Of a stretch of 64,000 nt of DNA, positions 12,245 to 61,500 are shown piece by piece; the first letter of the stretch is position 1, and every line of letters begins with the position of its first letter. Origin of the DNA: Oidiodendron maius Zn (lineage: Eukaryota > Ascomycota > Leotiomycetes > Myxotrichaceae); contig KN832875.1 of NCBI GenBank assembly GCA_000827325.1, positions 2,129,816-2,193,815 on the forward strand, given 5' to 3'. The translations under genes were made by a program, and so were the position numbers. Below the pieces are notes generated by a model, which saw nothing but the letters and a program-made list of their open reading frames with translations, was not told the origin of the DNA and ran no database searches.

Positions 12245-13959
12245 TTGTATTTTTTGGATATAATTATTTTAAACCAGAATTATGCAAAATAGACCCAGAA
12301 AGAAAGTATTCGTTGTCAAAGACAGGAAATATTACCGAGAGGAGTTTGTTTAAGTTCTAGGAAACGAAAACAAAATGAGTTACCAGACCACCCCATCATA
12401 TAATAAATTTCTCCCCTAATAAATTAGCCTATAACTTCATATACTTGTAATCTTATAACTATACACAACGTAATTGCGGATCTACTTTAGAGTGGGCTAA
12501 GAGCCAATTTGTAGCTTAGTTTAGTAATGCTCATTAATCATACACAAATTTTATGAGGTCACTATTCTTGTTAATACACGCCCGCCTTTTGAGAGCCGCT
12601 AACTAGCTTTGCGTAATGCCTTAAATATAGAGGATTGTACTCTAAGCATTGTTCTTCCTATTCTAACACAAATGAGTACGAGCTAGCCTTAGCCTTAGTA
12701 GGAGAAGGCAGAAGGATTTGTAACGAGCCTAATTTACAATTCCATTAACTTAATGTTACGGAATATAGGACGGAAATTATTATCGCATGGTAAGCACCTA
12801 AATCACCTGGATAAAAATAGAGTAGCGGTTACACATTGACGTACGCGTGAAGTATTAAATATGCTGCGTATATTTTTATTACGGCATTTTCCTAACACCG
12901 ACCCCACATCCCTGAAAATAGGAAAAAACTGACTTCACAACTTAATTAATTACCACAGCCGACTTTTCAGGGCATTTGAGCATCTAAGTGTGGTAACCTG
13001 TAATGGTAAGGTACCTTCTAATTGGTCTACCTACTAGTATAAACTTGAGTAACCCAACAGAAACAACGCGTCGCGTTATTTGCTTACGAGGTTCCATCCG
13101 TTATACTGATAATAGAGCATTTTTAGTGATTTCAAGTAATATTCGGCTGTGCTATCAATTCTGATACCCACTGGTGATTGCTAATGTCTGCTTATACTTA
13201 CCCCTGTAAATGAGCACTCAAACGAGCCAATTATATAACTACCTATCATTTTACTGGGGTCCAATAAAATCACTACAGTACCTATTTTTACTCTGTAGGG
13301 AGCTTCCAGCCTCTTACAACCCCGCGCTAGTGAAAGGTACGCCCTGCTTGAGGCGGAAGGGCCGAGCAACCGCCTAAAGATAATATATAGATAGCGAAGG
13401 CATCTGGGTCCAGACTTACCGAGACCTACCTACCAGAAAGCATAACAGCGAAAACTCCACCCGCCTCAATTACACATACGCGTATGCAATATTTTATTAT
13501 TTAGTGTCTCCTCAAAATTCTATCTTATGAGCAAGGCCAGCGAGTAGTAGGGGAATCCCCCACGCCGCGGCCCAATATATACTACGGCATACTATACATG
13601 ATATGTGGAAAAAGGTGTTGAAGAGCCGTCATACTAAGGCATCGGCACAGTCGGTCCTGACGACATCGGCAGCCACGCTGGTGGACTCGGGGATCCAAGG
13701 CCTCGACAACTCGCGCGGCTTGTCGACGGCTGTAGCCGAGCTAGCGTCTGGGTGACTTTGCGATCGACCAGTTTGATTTATAAAGGGATATAGTAGTCTA
13801 ATTAAGAATAAAGGTCTATATAAGCTTGAGAGTCTTACCAAGATCGTACGAGGACTGGCAGATAAACCAGCTACGGCCAGAAGGCAGCCCTCTACGTGAC
13901 CATCCTTTGCTCACTCGGGGAAGGAGCGCAGAACGCAGCAAGCAGACAGCAAGCAGACG
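12245..13959. other. Long AT-rich non-coding stretch
   Basis: No domain or splice-consistent gene found on either strand. The last 300 bases (about 13,630-13,950) become GC-richer and may be the decayed 3' continuation of the DUF3723-like pseudogene next to it. Confidence 0.45.
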
Positions 13960-14207
13960 ATCAACGGCTCACCATGCATTCCTGTGAGACAGGACCTCCC
14001 GGCCAGCCTGGATTCGGTGTTGTCCGTGGAGGCAGGCGAGTCAATAGCCAGACGGGAACTTGAGCTCGAGATAAGTTAAGTTAACCACACTGCAATTGGA
14101 GTTTAAAAATTAGTCAAATAGCTTCAGCTGTAGAGTGTTAATTTTCTTAGATTGGTGAACCTTCGGATTGATTAGTCAGCAATTCATCGGAAGAACCACA
14201 GATGCAC

Positions 14208-14545
14208 GGCTCGTGTTACAAACCACCAGTGGTGGTCAGTGCTCTTGCAACACTCGAATTTTCAGACCGTATTTCTCAAGTCAACCACAGCGTTAAAACT
14301 TAGATAAACCACATAGCAATTGAAAGCCATCCACATACAGTACTAATCTTTAATCAAATTTCAAATTTTATGTTGTGCTGTAAAGTGATATGTGGATGAT
14401 AAAATTCGGTGTTGCAAGAGCACTGACCACCACTGGTGAACACACCACAGATGCTGACATAACCGACACACCACGCATATCATCTACCCTTTTCGGCCAA
14501 CTGTGGTGTGTCTACTAGTTATCCAGTTAATTTCAGCGTATATTA
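14208..14545 (+). repeat. Left terminal inverted repeat, interrupted by a MITE
   Basis: Two pieces, 14208-14223 and 14439-14545, together match the right TIR. The MITE at 14224-14438 separates them. Confidence 0.8.
14224..14438. mobile_element. 215-bp MITE inside the left TIR
   Basis: Perfect 30-bp terminal inverted repeats start CACCAGTGGTGGTCAG at 14224 and at 14438 on the other strand. A 3-bp duplication AAC lies at 14221-14223 and 14439-14441; removing the MITE and one AAC exactly restores the outer element's TIR as seen on the right side. There is no coding capacity; an inner pair of inverted segments (catccacata / tatgtggatg) suggests a hairpin. CAC-starting TIRs with 3-bp duplications resemble CACTA-type non-autonomous elements, but the superfamily is not certain. 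Confidence 0.85.
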
Positions 14546-16976
14546 GTGACAATACACTAAATTTATAGTAAGTGTACACTATAGCGTTAATGATAGCATA
14601 CTATAAACTTAGTAATAATATACTATTAGCTTTATAATCTTATATTATAATCTTAATAATAATCTATATTAATCTTAGCTATATTTTACTCTAATCTTAG
14701 TCTTAATATATACTAATCTTTATTATAATATATTATAATAATAACTAATATTTCTAGTTTATAATTAGATAGATAAGTAGATATAATTAAGTATAGATAT
14801 AGAGTATATAGTAAGTATACCCTATAAATTTAGTAACTATCCTCTATAAATTTAGTAAATATAGCCTAATATACTTTATAAATAAGCTATATATATATAT
14901 AAACTATATACTCTACTATTAATACTACTAATTCAAACTAATATAACTCTATTTAATAGTCTTTAATTAGCTTAAAAAGAGAGCTAAATTACTTTAGTAA
15001 TATAAGCCTATAAAGAGAGCTATATATTAAGCCTATATATTACTGTTTAGTTATATAATATCTCTAAATTAATACTTTAAGGATATATTAAAGGTATTAT
15101 TATATAATATAATTTAGTATCTATAAACTAAAAACTTATAACTTTAGAGGAATTATCTCTTATCTAGTAGATATTATCTATAGATAAATATAGTCTACTA
15201 TCTAGATATAATACTATATAACAAATAGTAAATCTATTTCTTAAAAAACAATCTACTCTAAATTAGAGTAATCCTCTTATAGTTAATAAACTTTAAGTAT
15301 ATAACTTTATATAGTAGTATATAACTTTAAAGTTAAAATATAATCAGAAATATAATTACTAATAGATAAAATATAAAGATCTAGCTCTTATTTAACTATA
15401 GTTTAAACTTATATAGAATATAATTATAAAGTATAGTATTATAAAAGAGGATATTTATAATTTTAATAAGATAGGATTTTAAATAGAAGTTATTTTAATA
15501 GCTAAAGTTATAACTAGAGTAAAGAAGTCTAATAGACCTAAGTTAAAGTAGTCTAGGAATCAAGAATAGGTTATAGTTATTGATTATATTAGATTAAGTA
15601 GATAGACTTTACTACTAGTAATTATTTTCAAGTATAAACTCTATTTAAATATCTAGTATTTTAAGTTAGAGCTATCTTAAAACTAGACAATTAGTCTAAA
15701 TAAGAATAGCTAGATAGATAATCAATTAGGCTTTATATAGCTTAAGTATATATTTAAAAGGTATACTATATTATATATAAAGAGTATATACTAACTCTTA
15801 ATCCTTAATAGCTATAGTAGCTATATAATACCAGAATTTAACCTATTTTATAAGGAGTATTTAATTATTTCACTCTATATACTACTATATTTATTATACT
15901 TGTTATAGCTACTTGATATTAGCTGCTTTACTATCTTAAAGCAATTATATAGATAGCAGATTAAAGAGTATATATATACTAGAATTAATTATATTAATAA
16001 ACAGGACTTCTTAATAGTATATTATACTATCTATATAGAGTCTATAAGTCTAGCTAATATTTAGAGTAGTTTTATAGCTATAGAACTACTTCTATATAAC
16101 CCTAAAAGGGTATTCTTAAAGCTAACTTAATTTAAGATACCTATATTTCTGTCAGGTGTATGTCTGTCGGATAGCTGTGTGGTCGCTGTTTGCTACGTGG
16201 CACGAATCACCTAGGCGATTGTCTTATAAAATGTATATATATACTAGAGGAGGCCCTTGATTTAGGGAGCAGCGATCAGTCTTTCTATCTATTCCCGTCA
16301 TTGAATACATCATTGTTACCACGCTATACCGGTGATCCTCCAGCGAGGTCACGGCTATCAACCCAAAGCCCCTGTGATAACCATTGACTGGCCGACTCTT
16401 TCACTCTGTACGATAGACACCTGACAATTTCCCTTATTAAGTTATATAGCTACTCCTTAATCAAGGCCCTGGATATTTAAGATACCTTATAACACTACTT
16501 AACTTAACCTTTAAGCTAAAGTAATTAAGACAGCCTATCTCCTAACTCTAACTAATTAAGCATTAAATCAATTAGTTAAGGGCTATCAATTAGCTATAAA
16601 TAGTACTATCCTTCTAGTAGAAGAGAATAGACAACTATAACATGAAAATAAGAGATAAAAGAAGAAGAGAGCAGTAAAGAAGAGTTATATAGCTACTAGA
16701 GGGGTTTTGACTATTCAAGAGGGGATTGATTTAGATCAAGTAGCTAGAAAAAGGTCAGAAAGTAAGATAGTAGACTAGAAGGCAACTGTATAACTATATA
16801 TACCATGTATATATAGTCTATATAGATCTTTATTGCATATAGCCTGTATATATCCAGTAAAGCAGGCTTCTAATTAGGGTAGTTTATTAGGGTTTAATTA
16901 ATTAATTGGTTGTTGTATTGACCCTGAAAGCCCTGAAATCGAGGAGGGGTGCGCAGCTCGCATATATGCGCAGCTC
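14546..16976 (+). mobile_element. RIP-degraded pogo/Fot1-like transposase relic
   Basis: Strongly AT-rich with stops in all frames. One plus-strand path between about 15,800 and 16,130 still reads like the end of a pogo-type DDE transposase: a GHGSH..PEF-like block, then LLDISCFTILKQLYR and NPKRVFLKL. After the solo LTR at 16150-16426 the C-terminal Lys/Glu-rich part (about 16,620-16,760) continues, with a KK..YS..RGF..SRG stretch. The likely left end AGTGACAATACAC near 14,550 and right end near 16,920 are partly complementary, but element borders are not proven. Confidence 0.6.
16150..16426. mobile_element. Solo LTR (277 bp) with 5-bp target duplication
   Basis: Begins TGTCAGGTGT and ends ACACCTGACA, perfect 10-bp inverted ends in TG..CA form. 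The duplication ATTTC lies at 16145-16149 and 16427-16431. It is normal in base composition while its host sequence is heavily RIP-mutated, so it arrived after the main RIP of the pogo-like relic. No internal retroelement sequence is adjacent. Confidence 0.9.
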
Positions 16977-17101
16977 GCTTATGAAGTACGTTAAAGCTAA
17001 CTGGATGACTAATAGACACAACACAGTTGGCCGAAAAGGGTAAATGATATGCGTGGTGTGTCGGTTATGTCAGCATTTGTGGTGTGTTTGTAACACGAGC
17101 C
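16977..17101 (-). repeat. Right terminal inverted repeat
   Basis: Intact partner of the left TIR. Just inside it, at about 16,950-16,980, the 11-mer gcgcagctcgc occurs twice in direct orientation. Confidence 0.8.
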
Positions 17102-17321
17102 CAGATGCACCCGACGCCGCGAGTGCTTCTTGGAGGCGGGACTCGTCAATAGTCGCAGGAATGTGATTCTCCAGCTCCAGTCGGCGGCACCCCTCGGTGC
17201 GAAAGCACTTCTTCAGTCTCTCAACGTTCTTGCGGTTGAGCTCCCGTGCTGCATCGCACGGAAAATGTAGAGACTCGAGCCTGAGACTTCTCGATAACGC
17301 CCATGCCACTCGACCCTCCTC

Positions 17322-17735
17322 ATGGCATATCGTAGAGGCGCACGCCCGGAGACGATAATCGATATAGATACTGAACACCCCGAGGAGTTACCCAAATCCA
17401 GACCTCGATCTCCAAACACTGGCGTACTCGGCAGTCTCTCTGCGAATAGAAAACGGAAGCTTGGGGTTCACGACGGAGCCAAGTTTCCTAAGAGTGAGAA
17501 TGCCTATGCAAAGGAGATTTCTAGGGCTACAGCAGAGCTGGCGAGATTGGTTGGCAGTCCGTCATTTAGAGGGAGAGCGGGGGACTAATCGACTTGGACT
17601 TGGGGAAGGAGTTGAACAGCGTGCCCAGTGGAGCTAGTTATCAGGCTGTAACCCTGCGGCTCATGGCGATCGAAGTTCTGCAGGGCAAGGGACACTTATC
17701 TGCACACGATATTGTGTCATTTGTCTAGGTTTCCA
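17322..17735 (+). other. Unrecognised open frames, possible gene relic
   Basis: The frame at 17322-17588 and a following frame (about 17,590-17,730, reading ELNSVPSGASYQAVTLRLMA) look protein-like but are in different phases and overlap the start of the DUF3723-like relic on the other strand. No domain recognised. It may be a broken gene or chance. Confidence 0.25.
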
Positions 17736-17811
17736 TATAAAGGTGTATTCGATATGGCAGCAAGAAGAACCTGAGCGATCTCGAAAGCAGCTGGACCAAC
17801 ATGAGAGAAAT

Positions 17812-18375
17812 CTATTCAGCTCGCTGCTGGATTATAGTCCAGCGCGTGCGTATTGCCGGTTCAGTTCTCCCCGTGAACTTCTTGAAGATCCACTTCCAAG
17901 CCTTTCCCTCTTCCTGGTATACCCGCAGGCGCTGCTCGTCTATCTTGCCCCACGGGACAATCTTCCTCGGGCTTGCACTGTCCTGCTCATCCTCACTGCG
18001 ACATCCGTTATTGTCACTGCTGGCATCGGAACCGCTGTCGCTCGGACTGTCATCGTCGCTGATTCCAGCCGTACTGCGTCTCTCCGCAACGGCTCGGACA
18101 GGTCTGTCATACACAAGCCGGGTTCGCGCTACATGGTTGTTATGGGTGTATGCACTCGCGTGCCGTGGCAGAGTCGGCGGGCAACCAGGCAAGAGCTGGG
18201 ATACGGGATGATGGCATACGCCGGTCAAGAGGAGTGACTCTTGTTGTAGCAGCTTGATTGTGAAGTCGTCCAGCTCTCCAACATAGCCTATACCCTTGAT
18301 AAGTTGAGTAAACTGGGTGAAAGACACGCCATTCCCGTCGCAGCCGTCTTCTCTCCCCTTCACCCACCACCTCAC
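17812..18375 (-). CDS. Myb/SANT-like fungal protein, short
   Basis: A 187-residue open frame with no intron proposed. The C-terminus (about residues 140-187) reads WGKIDEQRLRVYQEEGKAW, then WIFKKFTGRTEPAIRTRW: spaced tryptophans and a GRT..IRTRW helix of a Myb/SANT-like fold used in DNA or chromatin binding. An acidic Ser/Asp-rich stretch (about 105-130) precedes it. The N-terminal part (FTQFTQLIKGIGYVGELDDF) resembles the usual start of a lineage-specific fungal family that I recognise by pattern only. The upstream end abuts a LINE fragment, so the true start is uncertain and the gene may be an orphan copy carried by repeats. Confidence 0.5.
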   Translation of the reverse strand: MRWWVKGREDGCDGNGVSFTQFTQLIKGIGYVGELDDFTIKLLQQESLLLTGVCHHPVSQLLPGCPPTLPRHASAYTHNNHVARTRLVYDRPVRAVAERRSTAGISDDDSPSDSGSDASSDNNGCRSEDEQDSASPRKIVPWGKIDEQRLRVYQEEGKAWKWIFKKFTGRTEPAIRTRWTIIQQRAE

Positions 18376-18399
18376 AGTCTGTTTTCACTTCCTTCATAC

Positions 18400-18560
18400 A
18401 AAGCAAGAAAGGCATGGAGAAGAGAACACATCTCATCAGCTGGAGACATATATATTCGCTGGGTACCAGGGCATGCAGACGTGCCCGGAAATGAGCTGGC
18501 AGGCGTAGAGGCCCGTAAGGGTTCCGTTGCTAATATAAGGCAGCAGAGGGCAGCCTAGTA
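18400..18560 (+). mobile_element. 3' fragment of a LINE: end of RNase H domain
   Basis: One frame reads IYIRWVPGHADVPGNELAG, the WxPGHxxxxGNExA block of the RNase H domain at the end of Tad1-type non-LTR retrotransposons, followed by a stop. Upstream parts of the LINE are absent. Sequence to about 18,700 may be its 3' untranslated end. Confidence 0.7.
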
Positions 18561-18817
18561 TGAGAGGGCTTTACTGCCTGGAGTATGACTCTAGGGCTGC
18601 CTAGAGGGGCTTTAAGTCTATATATTAGGGATTACGCACCTCTGTAACCCTTAGTTATTTTGTTGATTCAGTACTCTTGATACATCATATATTGCGGCCT
18701 GACCTCTGCAACAGGTTCCTCTCAGCTCCCTAGTGCCCCTCTCCCTCTCTCATTTGCTTCCCTCAAGAGATGCCAAACCCAGCAAGCTACACAAGCATAT
18801 ATTATTACAAACACTAA

Positions 18818-20305
18818 TTAGGTGTTTTCAATAGCTATAAGCTCTTCACTATTAGAAGACATTTCAAACTTTACGCTTACTCTCTGAACCTCTAACTCAT
18901 AAACCACTATTATACGACAAATGATAACTGAAAGAATATATCTTGCCAAAACTCCAAATGCATCTTTAGGTCCGACAAAAGTTGTGGAGGACAGGATATT
19001 AGTTCCAAGAATAATACTAAATATAATGAGGACGGAGAGAAACCAGGCCAGGAAGGTGAACCACCGACTTTCGGGAATGGTTACATATTGTAAACTTTCT
19101 TCCCCTTCCTCGGGTTGCAAATTAAACTCACGACGGGCAATTCTCTTAACGGTAAGGTACATCTCAGAGATAGTAGGCCACTGACTCGGACTCATCATTG
19201 CTTTGAGAGATGAAGCGACGGTTGAAGACCGTATGAACTGGCCGACTTCATCTAGCCGACGCACCCTCATGTGGAACACCACCGCTCCCATCACGTGCGT
19301 AATAATTCCAATAACAGACCAAATCATCGGCATATATATGGTGTTGGGATTCATTGTGTTGACCGATTGCACGCCGAGCACCCAGCTGAGAGTTGCTACA
19401 TTCGCGATGGCTGCGAGGACGAGGACGTACTCCAACAAGACTAACAGCCAACGTCGGTTGCTACCCCTGGTGGATTTGATATACTGAGCACCGATTCGTT
19501 CTTGGAGTATCACATCGGGATTTTGATATTTGAATGCTCTCTCTGTGTAGATGGATGGCGACGCAGCGGCAAGCAGAAATCCCAGGACCCGTCTTCTCCC
19601 AATCACTGCCACGAAACACACTTCCTCCGAGCTGGTACCAAGCACCGCAATGATTGTTGGAGTTATACCAAGCATGACTTAGGAACTACTCAGTTGATAT
19701 TGAATGTAGTTGCTCACATTGTCGAGTAGACAGTCGATCATGGGTTGGACGAAGAGGGTGAACTCGCCCGCACCAGTTAGTGTTTGATCGCTTGTGTTTT
19801 AATGGGTTCCGTAGAGATAGACCGAGTATGCATCGGTGCAGTTGTCTTTCGAGATAATGTTAAACTAGTATGAGTATTGGTTGAACCAAGATCTGAATTG
19901 CTTCCTCGATCGAAGGATATCATTGGGGTTTAAGAGAGCAACCAGAACAATGGTAACAGCTATAATAAGACTTGCTACAAACTTCACCACTGGCAAAGTC
20001 TCCTCGGAATTTAATACCCGGCTTGTGAATGATCGTCTTGAGCAGGCATTCGACCCACGGCTGAGACCGTTTGGGTGGGAGGCTTGGCAACTGAAGCCAT
20101 GTTGAGCGAATGGATTGACGAATTTGTAAAAGGAAAATTGCCAAATTTCTTGCCTATTAGAAAGGGGGCTGCCTAAGATATTCACCAACGTCTGCTGGTC
20201 TTGGTCTTGTGTTGCGGTCGCGAGAAGGGGAAGGAGCCGCTGAGGCAGTCGGATTTGCATGACTTTCGAATAGCGAATCCATCCATATAACCAAAACCTC
20301 TTCAA
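18818..20305 (-). pseudogene. Multi-pass membrane protein gene with three premature stops
   Basis: One frame runs 1,488 bases and encodes about 492 residues apart from three internal stop codons: TAG at 19867-19865, TAA at 19801-19799 and TAA at 19681-19679. Each would be CAG or CAA after a single C-to-T change in a CpA step, the RIP signature. Around the stops the sequence is well formed, for example GEFTLFVQPMIDCLLDNVSN between stops 2 and 3. At least five hydrophobic segments follow, including ITPTIIAVLG..VCFVAVIGRR, WLLVLLEYVLVLAAIANVA and WFTFLAWFLSVLIIFSIILG. This resembles a fungal family of unnamed membrane proteins. The start is unclear. Confidence 0.65.
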
Positions 20306-33202: not shown

Positions 33203-36200
33203 TCATTCTTTGACTCTTTCCACCCATTCAGTAGCCTGTATGTTGATCGTATTGGTGTCGATTAGGTCCTTTAATGCGGAGCAGGGCTTTGACTTCGTCA
33301 TAGCGTCAGCCGGATTGTTATTGCCCTCAATCCACCTAATCTCAGTGATCTCCCTTCTCTCATATGATTGTCGAAGACACATCAAATCCACTATTAGCCT
33401 CTTCTCTTGTGTGGTTCCTAGCTTGACTAGGCAGTCGTATAAGGACTTCGAATCGGTACAAAGGATAAGGGGAAGTCGGATCTGCAATATGGCTTCAATA
33501 GTCGATTTGATCGTTGCCCCTGCATCGAATCCGTGGGCCATTGCATATAACTCAGAAGCTAGGACGCTGCGTGTGACTCTCTTGCACTTGATTGACGACC
33601 AATGAAGTATATTAGCTTTGTTGTCTTTGTCGGAGAGGACTATGACGAAGCCGATCTGTGATGAGAGGTCCTGGTTGTTGGCAAACGAAGCGTCTGTAAA
33701 GACTATCAGCTTCATGGACTGAATATCGAGTCGTACAAAGCGTAGTCCCCTTGTAGGGTTATCGAGCTGCCACTGGAGTCTCTTGTTTAGTTGCTTTGCA
33801 TGCTCCTCCTTCGGGTTGATCACTTGCGCGGCGAAGGAGAGGTCAAATGCAGCTTCTGGTTGTGATACAGTTGCAATATAAGCTCCTCTTGCACGCTGTG
33901 CAACATATTGATCCTTTGGAGTAACTGCCTTGCGTATTGCACCTCTTGTGTTGGCTAGGTCAGTGGTGTATGTAGCAACCAGTCGTAAGTTCTTGCATTG
34001 ACGCTCTTGTGTAAGGGCTATTGAGCCTTCCTTCTCAAGTGTTATATTGCCGCCATTGAACTTGAGTGGATGTGATTGAGTAAGAAGCTACCTCTCTTTG
34101 GATAGGAACTGAGCCTTCTTGAGTTCATTGATCTCATTGATTGCAAAGGTATCGTTGCAGAGAATAAGGGTGTCATCTGTCTGGATTCCTATAATCCCGA
34201 AGTCTAAGTTGTTGTTGCCAGTCGTATATAAGAGACAAGGGTCGTATGTTGACTGATTCATGTATAGCTTCTCAATGTGGTGAGAGTGGTATATATTGAA
34301 CCAGTGGTTACCAGCCTCTGGCACTCCGTATAAAGGCTTAACCACCCGCAATATTGATCCATCCTTAAGCCTGAGCTCTGCTGGTGGTCGTACAAAGAAG
34401 TCTCGATTGAGTTGAGTCTTGGACTGAGTGTAGGCTTGTGTGATGTCTCGTAAGTAAAGGGAATTGTCTAGCAGGGCTGCTGCAAGTGCTAGTATCAGTC
34501 TCTGGCTAACACGTTGAATAGTTGGTGATTGAGTCAAGACCATGCCCTTCTCAGTGTCCTGGTAAGCCTGGACGACCAGTCTAGACTTCTCAAAGGCCTT
34601 GCTTGTTCCAGGGTTCTTGATCTCGTCAACAAATCGAGAGTTGAAGATCCTAATACCGTGTGGCACGTCCTCAATATCGACTACTTCGAATACACCGCTC
34701 TCAAGTAAACCATTCAGCTCCTTGCGGCGGGAGGCTGTGAAAGGTAGTAGGGCTAAGGCGTTGTCTTGGATGAATATCGATATATCAGCAACGTTCTGCC
34801 TGAACCGGGCTGGCAGTCGTCTTGTACGCTGCGGTCGAACCTGTTGCTCAGTTTGAGGGCTTGCATTAGCCTGTTCTGGATCCGGATCTGGTTCTGACTC
34901 TGATTCTGACTGCTCTTGTAAGAAGGGTTTGACTACTGTAGTCCTGAACTCGACAGGACCACGTGGTAGCTGCACTCTGCATGTCTCCCTCTCAACACCT
35001 AGCAGTTTGAAAGGTCCAGTCCACTTGCCGCTCTGCCCTGTATTGCCTTCTCGCCAGACTAGGACGTCTGAATTGAGTGGTGTATCATGAATAGCGCTGG
35101 TGTCTGGTCCGTTGTGTTGCCCTAGAGCCTCCTTGACCTGTATTTGAGTCCTGATCTTCACAACCTCCTCTATTGCCTTATGTATAGCCGCTGCACGTTG
35201 TATGATCGAGGGTGTCGGTGGATCGAGGTCAGTCATTCGTGGATAGGCTCCAAAGACTAAGAGGGTTGGAACTAGTCCACTAGGACCAGCTGTATCGTTG
35301 ATAGCCTTGACTGCCATCTGTAAGGCGATATCCTTTATGATATCAGGACACTCCTTGGTAATGATTTGATACGCACGGCATAGGATCGGATGAGCGCGTT
35401 CAACTAGTCCAACAGACCAATGTGCCTCCACCGGGACGCTCTTAGTTGATATGGCCATAGACTGAGCGTATTGTCGAAACTCCCTGCTAATGAAGTTCTT
35501 TCCAGCGTCATGAGTGATGAATTCAGGTGGTCCAATATATATGTCAATCCAGCAAAGCCTTAATATATCCCATGTGTATTTGGCTGATATATCCTTTAGC
35601 CATCTGGCTGCCTGGAAGCGTATGGCTTCATCGATAATATACAGGACTGGCTGCCCATCAATATACATGATGTTGACATATATAGAGCAGTTGAAATCGA
35701 GGTCCTGGTCATCACGTAGTGTAAATTTGAATCTGCCAGGTGATTTGCCATGCTTCTGGCAGTGGGAGCAGAACTTATTCAGTCGATGCAGCGCCTTCTT
35801 ATCGATATCATCATGCCCAGAGCGTTCCAACACCTTGTATAATCTGTCTGCTGAAGGGTGGCCGAATCGCCGGTGCAGCCGTCGAAGTTCAGTCATAGTC
35901 AGGTAACATGGGTTGTGCTCAAAGGATTCGCATATATATGAGTATAGAGCCTGAGCCCATAATATAAAGGGGTGGCCAAATCGTCTGATCACTGGAACAG
36001 TCTTCGTCGGTGCAACTAAGAGGTCTTTGAGGTTGTTGTAATAGACTCCAAGTGTATCCATGTCCTTGAGACATAATAGGAAGGGTGTATCAGCCTTAAC
36101 AATATGGAATTCAGCCTGTCCAACTGGCATGTCGACTATAATTGATCCGATTGATGGTGTTGATCCAATACCGAACTGCACATTGACTGCCCCTGCCTTT

Positions 36201-38853: not shown

Positions 38854-39529
38854 CCCCCCCCTTCAAGTAGCAGGTACCCTTAACTATAGTAGTTAAGTAG
38901 ATATATCTAGTCTATTGTCTATTAGATCCTTATAACTATTATATCCCTGCTCCTAAGCTTTAATCCAATTAACTAGTCTATATAGTAATCCTAGCTATTA
39001 AAGATATTTAATATAGAAATTATATAGTTTATATAGAGAGTATTTAAAATCTAAGATTAAATAGAAGTTAAAGTCTTTATTATAGTTTATCTAACTAATC
39101 TAATATAATAGCTTACTTTATAAAAGCTTAATAGCTAATATTTTATTTACTTTATATTTAATATTATCTATAATATATATAAACTTTAGTTTTAGATTAT
39201 ATTATCTTAATAAAGAATTATCTATTATTTTATATAATTAGTCTATATAGAAAATATTATATACTTTAATAAAGTCTAATAACTTTAATTAATAAAAGTA
39301 ATCTATTTTTCTTAAAATCTTAAAAGAATCTTTATTCTAGTTATTTAATATAATAGTCTAATTAGATTAAAGTAATATAGTTTTACTAGACTAATTATAA
39401 CTAGAATCTAGATATACTAGTTAAAGAAGATTAGTAATAGATTAAAATTAATTATAAAGGATATAATAAAGTTATCTAATTACTAAAGCTAAATACTTTA
39501 ATTTAGAAGTTAATTAATTGTTTATTATT
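38854..39529. mobile_element. RIP-degraded retroelement sequence with an LTR fragment
   Basis: AT-rich throughout. About 39,343-39,450 is a heavily mutated plus-strand copy of the first part of the same gypsy LTR (for example actagaatctagatatac against ccagtatccggacgtgg). The remainder, presumably gypsy interior, is not readable. Confidence 0.5.
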
Positions 39530-42500
39530 ATTATTATTAATATTTTATTTAGTTATCTAGTTATAGAATCTCTACTAGAAATATTATAAAGTAAACTATA
39601 TCTCTTAAAGCTAGATAAAACCCTTATATATTAGTCTCTATATATATAAAGTATCTTTATCTAGTCTTTACTACTACTTAGCTAGTCTTACTATTAATTA
39701 TATAATACTATCTAGAGCCTCTATAGCCCTCTTTCTTTCTCTTTCTTCTCTTAGTCCTAGATTACTATATACTTATAGGTTTACTAGAACTTAAAGAGAT
39801 AGCTAGTAGCTAGTAGTTACTTTACTACTATCCCTATATAGACTAGGTCTACTATTACTATTATAAAGTTATAGATAGTTTAAAGAGGATATAGTAAAAG
39901 AGTCCTTTAGAGCTCCTCTCTCTCTTACTATAGTTCTAGATAATAGAAGACTATATAGACTAGTATTTCCTCTATAATACTATAGTAATAGAGTAATATA
40001 TTTACTTCTAGAACCCTTTACTAGAACAGGAATACTTAAAGCTTTATCTTATTTATATAGATTTATATAAAAAGAGAGCTTTTATATTTCTTAAGACTCT
40101 AGTATTTCTAGAGTATCTTTTTCCCTTTAAATTTAGGGTCTATATCTACTAGTTCTATACTAGATCCTCTCTAGAACCTTATCTATATCTTGACTTTATT
40201 TTCCTATTATAGTCTCTAGTCTCTCTTTATTACTTTATCTATTATTAGCTCCCCTTTAATATATTATCTACTTACTTACTTTACTTTCTATTCTCCTCTT
40301 TTAGATAGAAGTTATAGTTCTATTAACCTGATTCTTATCCTCTACTATTAAAGATAAGTTACTATTATAGTATAGATATTATATACTTTCTTAGCTATAT
40401 CTATATATTTAAGCTTTAACTTAAATTTTATAACTCTTTTATTAAGGTATATATAGATTAATAGAGTAACTACTTTAGTCTTAAAGTATTAAATCTAGAT
40501 TATATAATATCCTCTAGTTACTATATAGAGATAGTTAGACTATACTATACTAAAGTAATTAGTAATATCTCTAGAGTTTATCTCTACTTTACTAGGTTTA
40601 TATTATATAGATACTTTATATACTATTATTACTTTTATTACTTTAGTATAGATTTCTCTTATATAGACTAGACTATATCTCTAGATTAATACTATAAGCT
40701 TTATAAATATAAGCTTCTAGATAGCTAGCTTCTTCTTAACTTCTTTTAGATAGTAATTCTATTAGAGCTTTTTATCTAACTAGACTTTAAGGAATTAGAC
40801 TAACTCTATTAGATTAATTATATATTCTATTAGATAAACTATCTTTAAGAACTCTATATACTTCTAGATAAAGTATATAAGTTTATTCTTTTAAGGAATA
40901 AACTCTATATCTCTTGTTTTAGTCTAGTATTTATAGACCTTAAATATACTCTTAAGTTATTAGTAGTTCTTCTAGATATTATAGCTAGCTATTAGGAGGT
41001 TTATATTATCTATAAATCCTATAATTATTAGATTTCTATACTTCTCTAAAGCTTTATAGAATAAGGCTATATAAAGTAGGAATAGAATTAGTAATAAAGG
41101 GGATCCCTATAGAACCCTTACTTTAATCTATATTAGCTTTAATACTTTATTATTAAATATAAGTCTTATAAAGTATACTTTAAAATAGCTATTAGTCTAT
41201 CTTATTATTTATATTAGAAAGCTCTATTTATATAAAGTATCTAGAAGCCTAGTATAATTGATTATATTAAAGGCTCCTTTAATATTAAGCTAGAGTAGTA
41301 AGACTATTACTCTATAGCTCTAGACTATCTATACTACTTTAGTAACTAAATATATAATAAGTTCTATAGACTACTCTTTTCTATTTTTTATTTGACTCTC
41401 TAGTAGAAGTTATTATAACTCTATTATATCTATAATTTAACTTCTTATTACTTCTTTAATAAGTTTTCTAACTATATTTAATAGAGAGATTAGCCTTTAA
41501 CTTCTAGCTATTTATTACTATATTAGTATTTTATCTAGTTTCTTAAAGACTACTACTTTTATACTATAGAACTACTTTAGAAAGTATTTAAGGTTAAAGT
41601 TAGCTTAGATTATAGCTATAAGAATTATTAAAAGAGGTCTACTATATATCTTTAGAAACCCTACTAGAAGATTATTACTTAGTTCTAGTACTTTCTAGAC
41701 TTTTTACTTAAGTCTTTCCTTGATTTCCTCTATAGTAATAGTCTTTTTAATAAGGAATTACTACTAGATTAAAGCCTTCTTCTAGATAGTATCCTTAATA
41801 TCTTAAAGGTCTACTTTACTACTAGAGAAGAACCTCTTTATTAAGGTTTTACTCTTTTCTTTATAGATAAATACTAACTAAAGGGTATCCTTACTTTAAT
41901 ATAGTAGTAGTATTATTAATAGCTTTTAAAGAGTATAACTTCTTAGTTATACTTACTATTAGAGTTTCTAAAGTATCTTTAGTTGCTTTAAGGCTCTAAT
42001 AAAGGCTAGTCTCTAATACTTTATTTATACTTTTTAGATTACTTGTCTTTATTTCTAGATAGCTTCTTAAAGCTTTATCTATATATATTATAATATTATA
42101 GTATAGTAGCTATATTATACTACTAATACCTTTACTACTACTTTATCTACTTCCTTATTCTACTATAGTTTACCTTAACTATAGCTAGTCTTTTATTATA
42201 GAGTTGAAATATTAGTAATTCTCTAAAGCTATTATATAAGCTAATTAGTTATATAATTAAGGGTTTCTAGAGAGCTAATAAAAAGAGGTATTTTTAGGGT
42301 TTTTACTTCTATAGTTATTAGATCTTTATCTATCTTAGTTTATAACTACTCTAGTAGTATATTAGAGAGTTACTAGTATTATATACTTTTGATTTATATA
42401 AGTTAGGCTATATAGTCTAATCTAGTATAGTCTAGATCTCCTTTATAGTATATTTATAGTATCTCTATATACTATATAAAGTCTAATATTCTATCTTTAT

Positions 42501-43565
42501 TCTCTCTATACTTTATATTTCTTTATCTAGTAAGTTTTCTCTATAGTATAGCTAGTATAAGATTCTAGTATTATATTAGTAAAAGAAGTACTTCTATATA
42601 TTATAATATTCTCCTTTCTTTATTCTATTATAAGTAATAGAGGTTTATATTACTTACTATTAGATAGTAACTCTTTAGTAGTCTTTTAGAGAGTATCTAG
42701 AGAAGGCTCTACTAGTCTAGTCCTTTATATAGTAAGTATATTAACTATATTATTAGTAGTTTAAGCTTAGCTTTAAAAGTAACCTTATATTAGTTTATCT
42801 CTATAGCCTATAACTACTCTATAATCCTATAGTATTTATAGATATATAGTATTATCTAGCTATTACTTTTATAGACTAGATAGTATTTACTATTAGCTAG
42901 ATAGTAGAACTATCTAGTTCTTAAGCTTCTAGCTAGTTCCTATATAGCTATTATATTATATTTACTATAATCCTCTAATATAATTAATACTGCCTTCTAG
43001 TTCTTTTCTATATTTTAGTATACTATTAATAGTATTATTAAAAGAGATTAAAGCTACTTACTATAATATCTTAAGTACTTTATATTCTCTAGATTCTTAC
43101 TATACTTATACTATAGCTTTACTAGATAAATATTATAATATCTTAATATATCTTTACTATCTAGATAGTTTCTAGAGGTCTTTCTCTTTTAGCTATTAGC
43201 TAGCTAGAGGTATACTAGAAGCTCTCTAGCTATAGTAGTCTTTTATATATAACTAAATAGAAGCTATCTATATCTTCTTCTAGTTATAGAGCTAGTATAT
43301 TACCTATATTACTACTACTATTTCTCTAGATAACTTTAAACTAGAGTAGCTAATATAGATATATCTAGTAGGCTCTACTACTCTCTTATTTAATAATAGA
43401 ATAGTTCTAGTTCTATATAATATAAGCTTCTCTATAGTTAATATACCTTTTCTTGTTATTATCTTCCTTCTTTAGGTAGTTAGTTTCTTCTTCTTTATAT
43501 ACTATATAGATATAGTAGTTATATCTAGTCTATTTAATATAGTACTATCTAATATACTTAAAGAT
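39530..43565 (-). mobile_element. LINE copy A, 3' part, heavily RIP-mutated
   Basis: Tad1-like non-LTR retrotransposon reading on the minus strand; its 3' end is the (TTA)n run at 39,530-39,542 (TAA tail on the coding strand). It aligns along its length with copies B and C but with almost every mutable C or G changed. An RT block is still visible at about 41,010-41,140. It stops at 43565, where copy B is inserted, and resumes at 48694. Confidence 0.85.
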
Positions 43566-48693: not shown

Positions 48694-49650
48694 ATATACT
48701 TAAAGATATAGTATCTAAAGTATTACCTTATCTATACTTTTATATAATAGAGTTTAATATTAAAAATTTAGGCCTTAAATATAATATCTCTTTAATAAGC
48801 CTTCTAAATAGTAACTATACTACTTATATATAGGACTATATTAGTAAATAGTCTATAAGGGGTTTTAGAAAACTATATTTTATATTAGATAATATTAGAT
48901 ATATATTTCTTTAGTTTAATAAGAAGCTCTATTAGATTATAGATATTATATAGTCTAAAGGCTACTATTCCCTTTACTATAATTATAAACTTCTTATATT
49001 TCACTTATATCTATACTCTAAATATAGTTATTATCTATACTATCTCTTTAATAAAACCCTTTATATTTCCTATAAATATTAGAATTATATTATTACTCTA
49101 TATTCTCCTTACTACTACTATACTATCTCTTTCTAGTACTTTATTAACTACCTTAATTATTTAGATAGATATTCTTTTAGCTAGATCCTTACTCTATTCT
49201 AGAGTTTATACTATAATTTCCTAGGTTTATTACTTTAGGATAACTATCTTTAGTATATATACTACTCCTTTACTAGTACTATATACTCTCTTTACTACTA
49301 CTATCTATATCTTCTTAAATATATTCTTAGGCTTTAGTAAAGTCTTTTTAACTATTTTTACTAGTATCTTAATAGTAGTTTATAGGTTATTTAACTCTAT
49401 TATAGTACTAGCTTCTAGTATATTTTAATATATTATAAAGACCTCTCTTAATATTATAATAAAGCTCTTCTCTTTATCTAGTATTATATAGTTTTTAAAT
49501 AGTTATAAAAGATCCTTATAATTACTCTCTAGTCTCTCTTCTCTCTTATTATTACTACTTTACTAGGTCTATATATATATACTTATATCTACTAGTAGAT
49601 AGTATATACTTTGCTTAAGACTAGTATATCTATTATTAACTACTATTAGA
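48694..49650 (-). mobile_element. LINE copy A, 5' part, heavily RIP-mutated
   Basis: Continues copy A beyond the copy-B insertion and aligns with the ORF1 end of B (47,600-48,550) and C, with C-to-T and G-to-A differences throughout. Runs into the assembly gap. Confidence 0.85.
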
Positions 49651-49864
49651 NNNNNNNNNNNNNNNNNNNNNNNNNNNNNNNNNNNNNNNNNNNNNNNNNN
49701 NNNNNNNNNNNNNNNNNNNNNNNNNNNNNNNNNNNNNNNNNNNNNNNNNNNNNNNNNNNNNNNNNNNNNNNNNNNNNNNNNNNNNNNNNNNNNNNNNNNN
49801 NNNNNNNNNNNNNNNNNNNNNNNNNNNNNNNNNNNNNNNNNNNNNNNNNNNNNNNNNNNNNNNN
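49651..49864. other. Assembly gap (214 N)
   Basis: A run of N from 49651 to 49864. Its true length is unknown if a placeholder was used. Confidence 1.
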
Positions 49865-50442
49865 TTTAAATATATTACTAATATCTAAATATTTATATAG
49901 ACTATTTTAAGCTTTATCTATAATTAAGAAAAGGTATTTATTAACTTTAGATTTTAGAGTATTCTTTATATTAGTAATTAATCTATTAAAAGTATCTTAC
50001 TTTAACTATAATAAAATAGAGTATTTTATTAGCTTTTACTTTAACTCTTATATTATACTAAAGATTAATAAGATTAAATAAGATATTAAGACTCTAGATA
50101 ATAAAGTAAATAATAAGACTAATTTTAAATTTAAATTAGAAAACTAGAAGTCTTAAACTAAAGCTTCTCTTTTAAAGTCTATATATTTAATCTCTAATAG
50201 ATTAATTTAAGTTTATTAATAATAGATAATTCTTTTACTTTTATATATATACTTTATAAAGATAGAATTATAATCTAAACTAAAGCTTTTAGTAATACTA
50301 GAATAAATAACTATATCTTCTTTAATTTGAAATTTATATTAGATTTATATTATACTTTTAATTTAAAGTCTAGATAGTTTCTCTAGACTATCTATTCTAA
50401 AGGATTTAATAGTAAGAAAGAGTTTTTAATATCTTAATACTT
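49865..50442. mobile_element. RIP-degraded repeat, type not recognised
   Basis: Very AT-rich with stops in all frames. It does not align by eye with the LINE or gypsy copies in the window. Confidence 0.4.
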
Positions 50443-55565: not shown

Positions 55566-58287
55566 TTATAAAGTATCTTTTGAGAATATTATAATATATA
55601 AAAGTACTCTTTTTACTAATATAAAGCTAGAACTTTATACTAGTTATACTATAAAGAGAACCTACTAGATAGAGAAATATAGAGTATAAAGAGAATAAAG
55701 ATAGAATATTAGACTTTATATAGTATATAAAGATACTATAAGTATACTATAAAAGAAATCTAGACTATACTAGATTAGACTATATAGCCTAACTTATATA
55801 AGTTAAAAGTATATAGTACTAGTAACCCTTTAATATACTATTAAAGTAGTTATAGACTAAGATAAATAAAGACTTAATAGCTATAGAAGTAAAAACTCTA
55901 AAAATACCTTTCTTTATTAACTCTTTAAAAACCCTTAATTATATAACTAATTAGTTTATATAGTAGCTTTAGAGAATTATTAATATTTTAACTCTATAGT
56001 ATAAAACTAGCTATAGTTAAGATAAACTATAGTAGAATAAGGAAATAGATAAAGTAGTAGTAAAGGTATTAGTAGTATAATATAGCTACTATATAATAGT
56101 ATTCTAATATATATAGATAAAGCTTTAAGAAACTATCTAGAAATAAAGGCAGATAATCTAAGAAATATAAATAAAGTATTAAAGACTAGCCTTTATTAGA
56201 GTCTTAAAGTAGCTAAAGACTCTTTAGAAACTCTAATAATAGATATAACTAAAAAGTTATACTCTTTAAAAGCTACTAATAATACTACTATTATATTAAA
56301 GTAAAGATACTCTTTAGTTAATATTTATCTATAAAGAAAAGAGTAAAACCTTAATAAAGAGGTTCTTCTCTAGTAATAAAGTAGACCTTTAAGATATTAA
56401 GAATATTATCTAGAAGAAAGCTTTAATCTAGTAATAATTCTCTATTAAAAAGATAGTTATTATAGAGGAAATTAAGGAAAGACTTAAATAGAGAGTCTAG
56501 AAAATATTAAGATTAAATAATAATCTTTTAATAAAGGTTTTTAAAGTATATAATAGACCTCTTTTAATAATTCTTATAACTATAATCTAAACTAGCTTTA
56601 ACTTTAAATACTTTCTAAAGTAGTTTTATAATATAGAAGTAATAGTCTTTAAGAAACTAGATAAGATACTAATATAATAATAAATAACTAGAGACTAAAG
56701 ACTAATCTTTTTATTAAATATAGTTAGAAAACTTATTAAAGAGATAATAGAAAGTTAAATAATAGATATAATAGAGTTATAGTAACTATTACTAAAGAAT
56801 TAAATAAAGAATAAAAAAGAGTAGTTTATAGAACTTACTATATATCTAGTTATTAAAGTATTATAGATAGTCTAAAGCTATAAAGTAATAGCTTTACTAC
56901 TTTAGTTTAATATTAAAAAAGCCTTTAATATAGTTAATTATACTAGACTTCTAAATATTCTATATAAATAAAGCTTCCTAATATAGATAGTAAAGTAGAC
57001 TAATAGTTACTTTAAAGTATATTTTATAAAGTTTATATTTAATAATAAAGTATTAAAGCTAATATAGATTAAAATAAAGGTCTTATAGGGATCCCTTTTA
57101 TTATTAATTCTATTTCTATTCTATATAGCCTTACTCTATAAAGCTTTAGAGAAGTATAGAAACCTAATAATTATAGGATTTATAGATAATATAAACCTTC
57201 TAGTAGCTAGCTATAATATCTAGAAGAATTACTAGTAATTTAAGAATATATTTAAGGTCTATAAATATTAGACTAAAACAAGAAGTATAGAGTTTACTCT
57301 TTAAAAGAATAAACTTATATACTTTATCTAGAAATATATAGAGTTTTTAAAAGTAGTTTATTTAATAGGATATATAATTAATCTAATAGAATTAGTCTAA
57401 TTCCTTAAAGTCTAGCTAGATAGAAAGCTCTAATAAAGTTATTATCTAAAAGAAGTTAAAAAGAAGCTAGCTATCTAGAAGCTTATATTTATAAAGCTTA
57501 TAGTATTAGTCTAGAGATATAGTCTAGTCTATATAAAAGAAATCTATATTAAAGTTATATAAGTAATAATAGTATATAAAGTATTTATATAGTATAAACC
57601 TAGTAAACTAGAGATAAGCTTTAGAGGTATTACTAGTTACTTTAATATAGTATAGTCTAACTATCTCTATATAGTAACTAGAGAATACTATATAACTTAG
57701 ATTTAATACTTTAAGATTAAAGTAACTATTCTATTAATCTATATATACTTTAATAAAAGAGTTATAGAATTTAAGTTAAAGCTTAAATATATAGATATAA
57801 CTAAAAAGATATATAATATCTATACTATAATAGTAATCTATTTCTAATAGTAGAGAATAAAAATCAGGCTAATAGAACTATAACTTCTATTTAAAAAAGA
57901 AGAATAGAAGATAAAATAAATAAATAGATAATATACTAAAAGAGAGCTAATAATAGATAAAACAATAAAGAGAGACTAGAGACTATAGTAAGAAAGTAAG
58001 ATTAAGATATAGATAAGGTTCTAAAGAGAATCTAGTATAAAACTAGTAGATATATACTCTAAATTTAAAGAGAAAAAAGTATTCTAGAAATACTAGAGCC
58101 TTAAGAAGTATAAAAGCTCTCTTCTTATATAGATCTATATAGACAAGATAGAGCTTTAAGTATTTCTGTTCTAGTAAAGGGTTCTAGAGGAAACACTAGC
58201 CTATATAGTCCTCTATTATCTAGAACTATAATAAAAGAGAAAGGAACTCTAAAGAGCCCTTCTATTATATTCCCTTTAAACTACCTA
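55566..58287 (+). mobile_element. LINE copy D, opposite orientation, heavily RIP-mutated and truncated
   Basis: Aligns in reverse complement with copy C from about 53,530 down to 50,780. The RT block is seen at about 57,050-57,200 (ILFLFYIALLYKALEKYRN). Its 5' part is missing, and its 3' last ~300 bases are cut off where the gypsy LTR begins. Confidence 0.85.
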
Positions 58288-58561
58288 TAGTAGTATAGTT
58301 CTATTAGACTATTTATAACTAGAATCTAGATATAATAGTTAAGAAGGATTAATAATAGATTAGAACTAGTAGGCTAGAGTAGCTACTAGTAATTTACTAT
58401 ATCCCTTTAATACTAGACTTAATCTAGACTAAGTAGTATTTATATAATTAAATATTTGTTTAGAGAGCTTTTCTCTTTTTAATTTAATTATCTTTATTAA
58501 TATAGTATCTTAATTAGTTACTATCTTTCTTTATAAAGCTTATAGTAACTAGACTATTATA
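58288..58561 (+). repeat. 5' LTR of the RIP-mutated gypsy element
   Basis: Aligns with the reverse complement of 38555-38853, for example ttagagagcttttctcttt against cagagagcttttctctcct. Ends are approximate to a few bases. Confidence 0.7.
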
Positions 58562-61500
58562 TTATAATTAAACTTACTCTTTTTCTTCTTTACTCTTATA
58601 AGTAATTAAGGTTAAATACTACTATTACTACTTACTAAAAGCTACTAGATTAGTTAATCTATAGCTTTTCTATACCTTTAATATTATTAGCTTTAACTAT
58701 ATAGTTATAAAATAAGCTATTAAAGCAAAGATAGTTAGAGAAGCTTTAAAAGCTAGTATTTAATTAGAACTAGTATTTATTAAGTCTATTTATACTTACT
58801 ACTTTTATCTATCTATTAAACCTCTTATACTCTTTAACCTTTAAATATATATCTATATAATTAGTAAATATATTCTAGTAAGAATATTATCTTTAATAGT
58901 CTATAGTAATAGAAATTAGGATATATCTATAATATAACTATATAACTAATTTAATACTCTAAGCTTAACCTTTAAATTTAAGACTACTAATATAGCTCCT
59001 TTAGCTAAAGATAAAGGTAAAGTAAAGGATACCTCTTATAGACCCTTTAAACTCTAAAGGTCTATTTAATATCTAGCCTCTTTTAAAAGTAACTCCTTTA
59101 ATTAGGAACCCTTTAAGAGTCTAGACTAGTATACTAACCTTTTAGCTCTTTAGTATATCTAAGTTAAGAGTTAAATAAAGGTTAAGACTATCTAGAAATA
59201 GATTAAAAAGCTAGAGACTATAGTTATTTAGTTACTCTAAAACCTAACTTCTCTTTAAGCTTCTTTAGAACTAATAACTAGATCTAAATCCTAGTATATA
59301 GTTTAATATAAGCTAAAGTATAAGGACTCTCTTTAGTTCTCTAGAAAGAAGGATAGAACTATTAAGTATTAAGTTTAGAAAGAGTAAGTTATAGATAAAA
59401 TTTAAATTAATAGCTTTTAATTTAATAGCAATTAGAAGATCTAGTTCTTTATCTTTAATTATATTAAAGAAAAGGTTTAATAATACTTATACTCTTAATA
59501 TATTAATAATATTAAGAATAATAACCCTTACCTTAACTATATTAAGATACTAATAGCCTTTAATAATATCTATTATAACTAATACTATAAGGAAGACTCC
59601 TATACTAAATATAAAGAACTAAAAATAAAAAACAAGGAGTTTTTCTAAGATTTTAAGATATAATTCCTCTAGCTAGTTAATAAAGGCTAGATTCTAGAGA
59701 TAGACTACTTTAATAACTTATATAAGAAGGTTATAACTCTTCTTTAGTTATATATCCTAGCTACTAAATATAATCTAAATAGTAACTTCTAGAAGCTTTA
59801 TAACTATCTAAGCTATATAGATACTAACCTATAATACTTTAATAGCTAGATTATAAAGGATTAAGAGACTAAAGCTACTATATAGCTACCTTCTATTTAT
59901 CTAGCTACTAGATATCTACTACTTCTAAAGCTATTTAATTAAGTAAATAGTATACTACTACTAGCTTTAGACTAACTACTTTAGTTTAAGCTAATTAATC
60001 TCTAGCTTATTTTATTATCTATTTAGCTATACTAGTAGACTAGATACTTTAATTATAGAGGGATTAACTATCTATATATAGACTATAAGCTACTAGACTA
60101 AATAACTAATATTAAAGATATTAAGATTAAGGAAATAGAAGACCTAGAAGTCTATAAGACTACTATTTATAGAGATAGAGTTATTAATATAGATCTAGAA
60201 AAAGAGAAGATCTAGATAAAGACTCTAGTCTAGACTTTCTAAAGGTTAATTTATAGAGAATTAACTTAAGAAGTCTTATAAGAGAATAATACTTTATTAT
60301 AGTCTATATACTATTAACTAATAGAACTAATATTACTTTATATACCTTTATTAACTCTAGAGTAAATAGATTTATATTTATTAATATACTCTTTATAATT
60401 AATCTAGTTAGATCCTTTAATATTATAATTACTTAACTATTTAGCCTTATCTAGATTAAAGGATATAATAGTAAGCTAAAGAGACTAGTTATCTATTATA
60501 TATAGCTATACTTAACTATTAACTAGTATTACTAGTATAATATATCTCTTTTAATATTAGATCTAGAAAACTATAATATAATAATTGAATAGAAGTAGCT
60601 AGTCTATTTTAATGTTTTATTAGATTACTAGTAATACTGCTTAGTCTAGCTAGCTAAGTTACTATCTAGCTACTTAGTAACTAAAGAAATCTAATAGAAC
60701 TACTAGAATCTAATCTTAGCTTTAAAGACTTTTAGCTACTAAAAGAATATAGATTATAAGGACTAGACCTTTACTAATATAGATTAGGGAAGCAACTTAA
60801 GCTATAAGAGTATAGAGATTACTTTAATTTCTTCTAGTAGCTAGATTAAATCAATCCTTTAACTAAAGCTAAAGTAGAAGCTTTAATCTAAAGTCTTCTT
60901 TAAACTAGAGCTCTAGAACTATCTTTAAAAGATAAATAATAACCTTCTAGACTAATAGTAAATCTCTAATCTCTCTTATTAAAAGAAGCCTTACTAGTCT
61001 ACTAAGATTAAGAGACTCTACTAAATAGATATTAATACTATCTTAATAAATAGTTTCTGTTTATATCTATATTAAAAGGATAGTAAGCTCTTTTTAACTA
61101 GTCTATATAAGATTAACTAGTTAATCTAAGACTAGAAGGACTAAAGCCTTATAGATAATAGTAGCTAGACTACTAATCTCTATTAAATTAGCTAGTTAAA
61201 GTCTAGTATTCTATAAGAACTACTACTACTAGTAGCTTATAAGAAGTTCTAGAATATCTTTTTAAAAGAAGTATTAGATATATTATCTTTTAACTAGCTT
61301 TATAATTATAAGATTAATCTAATAGAGTCTAATAATCTAGATTTTAGACTACTATACTATATAATTATAAAGAAACTAGAGGAGATTAAGCACTACTTTA
61401 TTAAGAACCTTTATAAGGGTTTTATAGAGTCTAGTTAGGCCCCCTTTATTATACTAATCCTTTTTGTTTATAAAGCTAATAGATATCTATATCTCTATAT

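Follow-up and report, generated by a model that had tools for sequence, protein, structure and literature searches.

Four nested insertions of different kinds in a DUF3723 gene remnant of Oidiodendron maius and the order of events that they record

Introduction

In the ascomycete Oidiodendron maius Zn, a remnant of a DUF3723 gene is interrupted by several repeated sequences that lie inside one another. The locus raises the questions of whether these sequences arrived separately or as one element, in which order they came, and how the RIP-type mutations seen in part of them fit into that order. The window, i.e., the whole stretch of 64,000 bases analyzed here, forms the terminal 64 kb of contig C6 (2,193,815 bases) in a genome of 45.9 Mb and 58 contigs.

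Results

Architecture of the nest

The nest at 14199–17110 is genuine and consists of four insertions of four different kinds in a DUF3723 gene remnant (Table 1). Each insertion carries its own target duplication, and the borders and duplications were verified base by base. For each of the three inner insertions, versions lacking it are present elsewhere in the same genome, and thus the nest is more than a chance arrangement. A sequence-only reading of the window had described the nesting, which was borne out, with correct coordinates for the outer 9-bp duplication, the MITE, and the LTR. It had named three of the four duplications (9 bp, AAC, and ATTTC) and missed the TA of the pogo-type element. 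The idea that MITE, TIR, and interior might always occur together as a unit did not hold, as each layer was found alone elsewhere in the genome. The nest is slightly richer than that reading had described, and one of its statements on RIP was wrong. For the gene site, the search covered one genome, in which no listed match spans the junction, either as an empty allele or as a DUF3723 paralogue with the junction intact.

Table 1. Positions of the nested features in the window
Feature	Position	Strand	Evidence
DUF3723 remnant, left piece (profile 42–78 at ~14070–13960)	13960–14198	-	PF12520, E 2.2e-7
Target duplication CAGATGCAC, 9 bp, left copy	14199–14207	.	sequence
MULE-type long-TIR element, outermost insertion	14208–17101	.	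inverted repeats, genome copies, 9-bp duplications, MULE domain in relatives
AAC duplication of MITE	left 14221–14223, right 14439–14441	.	sequence; MITE-free TIR ends
MITE, 215 bp, perfect 30-bp TIRs, in MULE left TIR	14224–14438	.	sequence and genome copies
MULE left interior, RIP-mutated	14541–14868	.	directional changes relative to other copies
TA duplication of pogo-type element	left 14867–14868, right 16992–16993	.	sequence; single TA in pogo-free MULE copies
pogo-type element	14869–16991	+	DDE_1, TIRs, genome copies, directional changes
ATTTC duplication of LTR	left 16145–16149, right 16427–16431	.	sequence
Solo LTR, 277 bp, inside pogo-type element, not RIP-mutated	16150–16426	.	genome copies, index
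Target duplication CAGATGCAC, 9 bp, right copy	17102–17110	.	sequence
DUF3723 remnant, right piece (profile 1–28)	17106–17189	-	PF12520, E 0.0022, below cut-off

The DUF3723 remnant and its neighborhood

The left and right DUF3723 pieces share one reading frame across the joined site, with several stops. This agrees with the dead DUF3723-like gene proposed earlier as far as the two in-frame pieces go; the part of the profile that was recovered amounts to just 65 of 508 positions, all within positions 1–78 (ten frames scanned). No DUF3723 match was found in the other scanned flank frames (the rest of all six frames of 17102–18900 and of four of the six frames of 12800–14207), so the remnant looks like a fragment. 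DUF3723 figures among the genes that have been described as frequent or noteworthy in Starship elements (PMC12134995).

Within the remnant, 67 bp (14087–14153) are 96% identical to positions 1501–1567 of another locus, L091 (C5:1340173–1340239), where the counterpart lies in a seemingly unrelated long ORF in the same reading frame. This stretch, which may be intron-like or a fragment, contains TTGCAG close to one of its ends, resembling a 3' splice site. Beside the nest, Pkinase_fungal (17570–17737, E 5.4e-8) and RNase_H (18418–18522, below the cut-off) fragments were observed. Elsewhere in the window, there are an RVT_2 reading frame (34088–36181) and blocks with a GC content of 0.17–0.24 (39001–43000, 49001–50000, and 56001–63000), which are possibly further RIP-mutated repeats.

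The outer MULE-type element

The two copies of the target duplication of the outermost insertion are identical at 9 of 9 bp. When the MITE was removed in silico, the outer 104 bp of the two TIRs matched with 5 mismatches (counted on the alignment), as the earlier reading had implied. At least 40 scored genome matches were obtained with the right TIR. Its terminal 13 bases occurred in exact form 38 times, compared with once for the reversed control. Seven long end pairs were found among the listed TIR matches. Perfect 9-bp duplications flanked all five long pairs examined (C11, C17, C18, C19, and C33; the C10 and C15 pairs were left out of this check). In three of the seven long pairs (C10, C11, and C15), the MULE domain (PF10551) was detected between the TIRs, and the loci searched for the other four contain long N runs; it was also found ~1.2 kb inside a single MULE end at C4. 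A target duplication of 8–11 bp, as described for MULEs (PMC6446971), long TIRs, and a transposase in long relatives were thus all found.

No MULE transposase was seen in the window copy, which spans ~0.55 kb (551 bases, with 104 TA sites) after removal of its inserts. It is a short non-autonomous relative of the long copies, and its insert-free size resembles the 0.52-kb spacing of the pairs at C13 and C17:672517. A plasmid collection searched with the right TIR gave no match, and a Pfam search with an N-terminal ORF beside a MULE end returned no family. At the right ends of two copies (L011 and L023), GTGTAAGGGCCGCC directly abuts the MULE end; it resembles the end of a different MULE-type family, i.e., elements placed end to end.

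The MITE in the left TIR

The claim of a MITE splitting the left TIR with an AAC duplication proved correct in every coordinate. MITE copies or pieces were found at seven other places in the genome (73–90% identity), and no MULE match was found in the loci around them. Fifteen MULE ends that were inspected have no MITE, and a sixteenth (L016) aligns unbroken. CACTA-like MITEs are defined by a 3-bp duplication and CACTA-type ends. The MITE ends in CACCAG, one copy ends in CACTAG, and the duplication is AAC here and ATA (3 bp) at L032; at L033, the duplication has no clean match. No autonomous partner was found in the C3 stretch inspected, the frames of which were read by eye. That stretch, in which two MITE-type matches lie 2.7 kb apart and the left match has no outer end, was dropped as a candidate.

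The pogo-type element

A pogo-like transposase remnant had been proposed, and it was recovered as a DDE_1 match (PF03184, E 2.1e-6, 27.8 bits against a cut-off of 22, with stops as X). It had been taken for the interior of the long-TIR element; it belongs instead to an insertion in its own right, which is flanked by TA, has TIRs of its own, and is 1841 bp long without the LTR and one ATTTC copy. MULE copies without this insertion run from the base equivalent to 14868 directly into 16994. At the junction, six of them (L010, L011, L024, L026, L027, and L028) have a single TA, two (L018 and L020) have TG, and L004 shows a slight local deviation. One of these MULE copies, L024, carries another insertion. 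The right TIR of the pogo-type element is intact, and the left TIR resembles its C-to-T/G-to-A version; sister copies and short relatives have the same TIR at both ends. The exact pogo-end pattern occurred 50 times in the genome and never for the reversed control. pogo copies exist away from MULEs, likewise MULEs without pogo, and the nearest relative of the window copy (C44, 93%) had no MULE match in the flanks examined. Judged by its TA duplication, TIRs, and DDE_1 transposase, the element can be assigned to the pogo/Fot1 type (Tc1/mariner). At L078 (C22:124126–126392), a pogo-type end abuts another pogo copy, with one TA common to both.

The solo LTR

A solo LTR splitting the pogo layer, with an ATTTC duplication, was found exactly where it had been placed. 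It has TG..CA ends and a 5-bp duplication, and eight other near-full copies in the genome (91–99% identity), of which several have common sequence beyond the repeat; this sharing of internal sequence supports its identity as an LTR. All seven aligned pogo copies lack the LTR and have a single target copy; the alignment left out L077 (which contains N) and partial pogo copies, and its cut was one base off, which did not change the result. The solo LTR probably arose by recombination between two LTRs.

Five of the eight other copies (L048–L052) lie within ~1 kb of a contig end, and in four of these, the adjoining sequence is common to other copies, i.e., it is the internal side of the element. 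On C2, the contig terminates in large-subunit rRNA, and an LTR copy lies next to this rRNA or inside it. Telomere association of the family was considered and rejected, as each locus contains TTAGGG/CCCTAA in small numbers; the copies near contig ends are more readily explained by assembly breaks.

Extent and cause of the RIP-type mutations

The statement that only the pogo layer is RIP-mutated was wrong in both directions: the mutated tract enters the MULE by ~330 bp, and it spares the last 151 bp of the pogo-type element, which is mutated from its left end to ~16840 and spared at 16841–16991. The composite RIP index was 1.32 in the left part of pogo (border used one base off), 0.93 at 16433–16840 and 0.06 at 16841–16991 (pogo borders one base off), and 1.15 in the MULE left interior. 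It was −0.07 in the LTR (border one base off), although the pogo pieces that flank it reach 0.93 to 1.36 (borders one base off), −0.52 in the MITE, and 0.02 and −0.45 in the two gene flanks.

Comparison of the window pogo with the copy at L074 gave 314 C>T/G>A changes, 39 transversions, and 19 reverse transitions over 14869–16149 and 16433–16640, compared with 3, 3, and 9, respectively, over 16841–16991. With L074 as the reference, 35 of 37 CpA sites were mutated at 15469–15768, compared with 26 of 90 other C sites; the changes in this repeat are thus directional and biased to CpA. In the spared end, C>T/G>A changes of the window numbered 2 against 4 reverse changes relative to L072 and 7 against 8 relative to L073. 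L071, the closest pogo relative in this comparison, is mutated to the end of this region (19 versus 3 relative to L072). The spared pogo end and the mutated MULE interior together indicate that the mutated tract ignores element borders.

These directional changes would be explained by RIP, and the MULE interior was most likely mutated by leakage from the pogo-type element rather than as a target. An alternative is that the interior is natively AT-rich in this family or was hit by RIP as a repeat in its own right. The interiors of other copies are indeed AT-rich (GC of 0.24–0.35, compared with 0.18 in the window), and RIP-direction changes in the right TIRs of L020 (11, of which 10 are in CpA/TpG context), L024 (10), and L004 (7) indicate that the MULE family can itself be hit, which speaks against leakage as the sole cause. 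The window interior nevertheless differs from the majority of other copies by 17 C>T/G>A changes against 3 reverse changes (278 columns), with 11 of the 17 in CpA/TpG context, whereas the same interior in eight other copies has 1–6 RIP-direction against 2–13 reverse changes (L010, which aligned just near the right end, is excluded from these counts). CpA and TpG together amount to 2.1 per 100 bases in the window interior and 5.8–8.5 in the others. The TIRs of the window copy itself are hardly touched (3 RIP-direction against 5 reverse changes in the left one and 0 in the right one), and the mutated MULE tract passes without interruption into that of pogo, CpA and TpG being entirely absent from 14600–14899. 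We therefore consider a native or MULE-targeted origin unlikely and retain leakage from the pogo-type element.

Leakage of this kind has been described in Cladosporium fulvum, in which RIP-type mutations were reported beyond the repeat (PMC9453070); the likeness lies in RIP-type mutations running past a repeat, and the present case differs in concerning a single junction with one repeat end spared, where leakage is the reading of the pattern. A Rid1 pathway that targets repeats has been described, together with a Dim2 pathway that targets single-copy regions with repeats on their flanks (PMC12543289). The genome has five PF00145 (C5-methyltransferase) matches, none of which was assigned to Rid1 or Dim2.

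Order of events

The earlier claim that the RIP decay predates the solo LTR was upheld. Both ATTTC copies have the same two C-to-T changes, and these changes are thus older than the insertion of the LTR, which is unmutated though flanked on both sides by mutated DNA. At the equivalent site, the LTR-free copies read ACCTC (L071), CCCTC (L072, L073, and L074), ACCAC (L075 and L078), or ACTAC (L076); neither change is present in six of the seven aligned copies, and one is present in L076. The two changes lie outside CpA context.

As a whole, the locus is very probably best explained by four separate transposition events. A non-autonomous MULE of ~0.55 kb would have entered the DUF3723 gene with a 9-bp duplication, and a pogo-type element would then have entered a TA at the inner edge of the MULE right TIR. 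RIP would subsequently have mutated most of the pogo-type element and ~330 bp of the adjoining MULE interior, most likely by leakage, and an LTR retrotransposon would have entered the dead pogo and later been reduced to a solo LTR. The 215-bp MITE would have entered the MULE left TIR either before or after each of the pogo insertion, RIP, and the LTR insertion.

Nesting makes the MULE older than its inserts and is silent on whether it was in the gene first. A composite MULE that moved in whole would leave the same 9-bp duplication, and this weighs against the four-step history. Under such a composite history, the pogo-type element, the MITE, or both would have joined the MULE elsewhere, and the loaded MULE would have been cut and pasted into the gene. 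The intact 9-bp duplication and the low RIP index of the gene flanks fit this course of events, and cut-and-paste movement leaves no second copy. Nonetheless, no second loaded copy is present among the MULE and pogo matches listed, the C44 relative lacks a MULE match in the flanks examined, and the MITE interrupts the left TIR at 16 bp from the tip, so that movement would be expected to be impeded. Arrival as a composite is accordingly improbable, and the MULE was presumably at its present gene site before pogo and the MITE came.

A single chimeric DNA transposon that has long TIRs, makes 9-bp duplications, and itself encodes a pogo-type DDE transposase would account for the transposase remnant between the TIRs, where the scanned frames contained no other transposase. 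The pogo-type element, however, has TIRs and a TA duplication of its own, three long relatives have the MULE domain between their TIRs, and MULE copies without pogo and pogo copies without the MULE exist. The pogo-free MULEs with a single TA and the MULE-free pogos refute the chimeric reading, to which we attach next to no probability, and the four-event history is preferred to both alternatives.

pogo insertions at MULE ends

The exact pogo ends in the genome belong to 37 distinct insertions. Flanks were inspected for 35 of these (47 ends), with C24:41763 and the C33:168079/168503 pair left out. Four of the 35 lie in, or at most 30 bp from, MULE-family ends (the window, C14:275167–277019, C19:101044, and C4:439540). 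One further pogo flank (L097) has a weak 21-base MULE match 101 bases out. For 15 pogo loci and for the window, the flanks examined (each 178–1400 bases long) contained one other MULE match, in L029, which lies 564–631 bases out within the C19 MULE; L029 was itself derived from the MULE search. At the density of a control of 28 loci found via the LTR or the MITE (673 MULE-like of 83,845 bases), the binomial chance is 2e-4 for 4 of 35 and 0.003 for 3 of 34 (without the window), and at a MULE density of 2%, it is 0.03 for 3 of 34, for a test devised after the pattern was noticed and with AT-rich targets favoring TA insertion anyway.

The C14 locus (L074, C14:273674–277239) is a second case of pogo inside a MULE-family element. 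The window and C14 pogo insertions share their orientation and occupy the homologous TA at the inner edge of the TIR, on opposite sides of the MULE interior. Transversions between the two loci number 18 in 105 bases of the MULE TIRs, 23 in 1541 bases of the pogo bodies (15169–16991), and 27 in 285 for the first 300 bases of pogo. Given this divergence of TIRs and pogo copies, the two insertions most likely occurred independently. That MULE ends form a pogo hotspot, which would include one inner-edge TIR TA with the same pogo end toward the TIR in both cases, is a tentative idea that we regard as doubtful; regarding published precedent for such a hotspot, we claim no absence beyond the literature searched on nesting, RIP, MULEs, pogo, and DUF3723.

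Discussion

Neither the components of the nest (MULEs, pogo elements, and TEs nested in one another) nor the processes behind it (RIP leakage included) are new, and the nest is a well-documented instance of them. An ascomycete sub-group of group 35, which includes Hop, has TIRs of 85–99 bp (PMC6446971). The outer element resembles the Hop-group MULEs of Ascomycota in its long TIRs, 9-bp duplications, and MULE domain in long relatives, and differs in that the window copy is short and non-autonomous; the likeness is one of features. Integration at TA has been described for pogo/Fot1-type elements in Paracoccidioides (PMC2836289). The inner element shares the TA duplication, TIRs, and DDE_1 transposase with fungal pogo/Fot1 members of Tc1/mariner, and differs in being RIP-mutated and in having short relatives of ~430 bp with the same TIR in the genome.

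TEs inside MULEs are familiar from plants. In maize and rice, more than one third of candidate coding MULEs contain TEs, and in 107 highly similar rice copies, one MITE is present at an identical position, either complete or in part (PMC3903597). The window nest is alike in having TEs inside a MULE, and differs in being fungal, in being dated by RIP, and in that the two pogo insertions are at a homologous site but most likely independent.

The nest is genome debris of an ordinary kind, the history of which is unusually easy to reconstruct. Four duplications and copies in the same genome without each inner layer make it a clear example of how nesting can be used for dating, and the target duplication ATTTC itself records mutation before the last insertion. 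The RIP-type tract crosses from a transposon ~330 bp into its neighbor and spares one end of that transposon. If the hotspot were true, MULE TIRs would be landing pads that seed nests, and the formation of nests in this genome would be in part directed instead of random.
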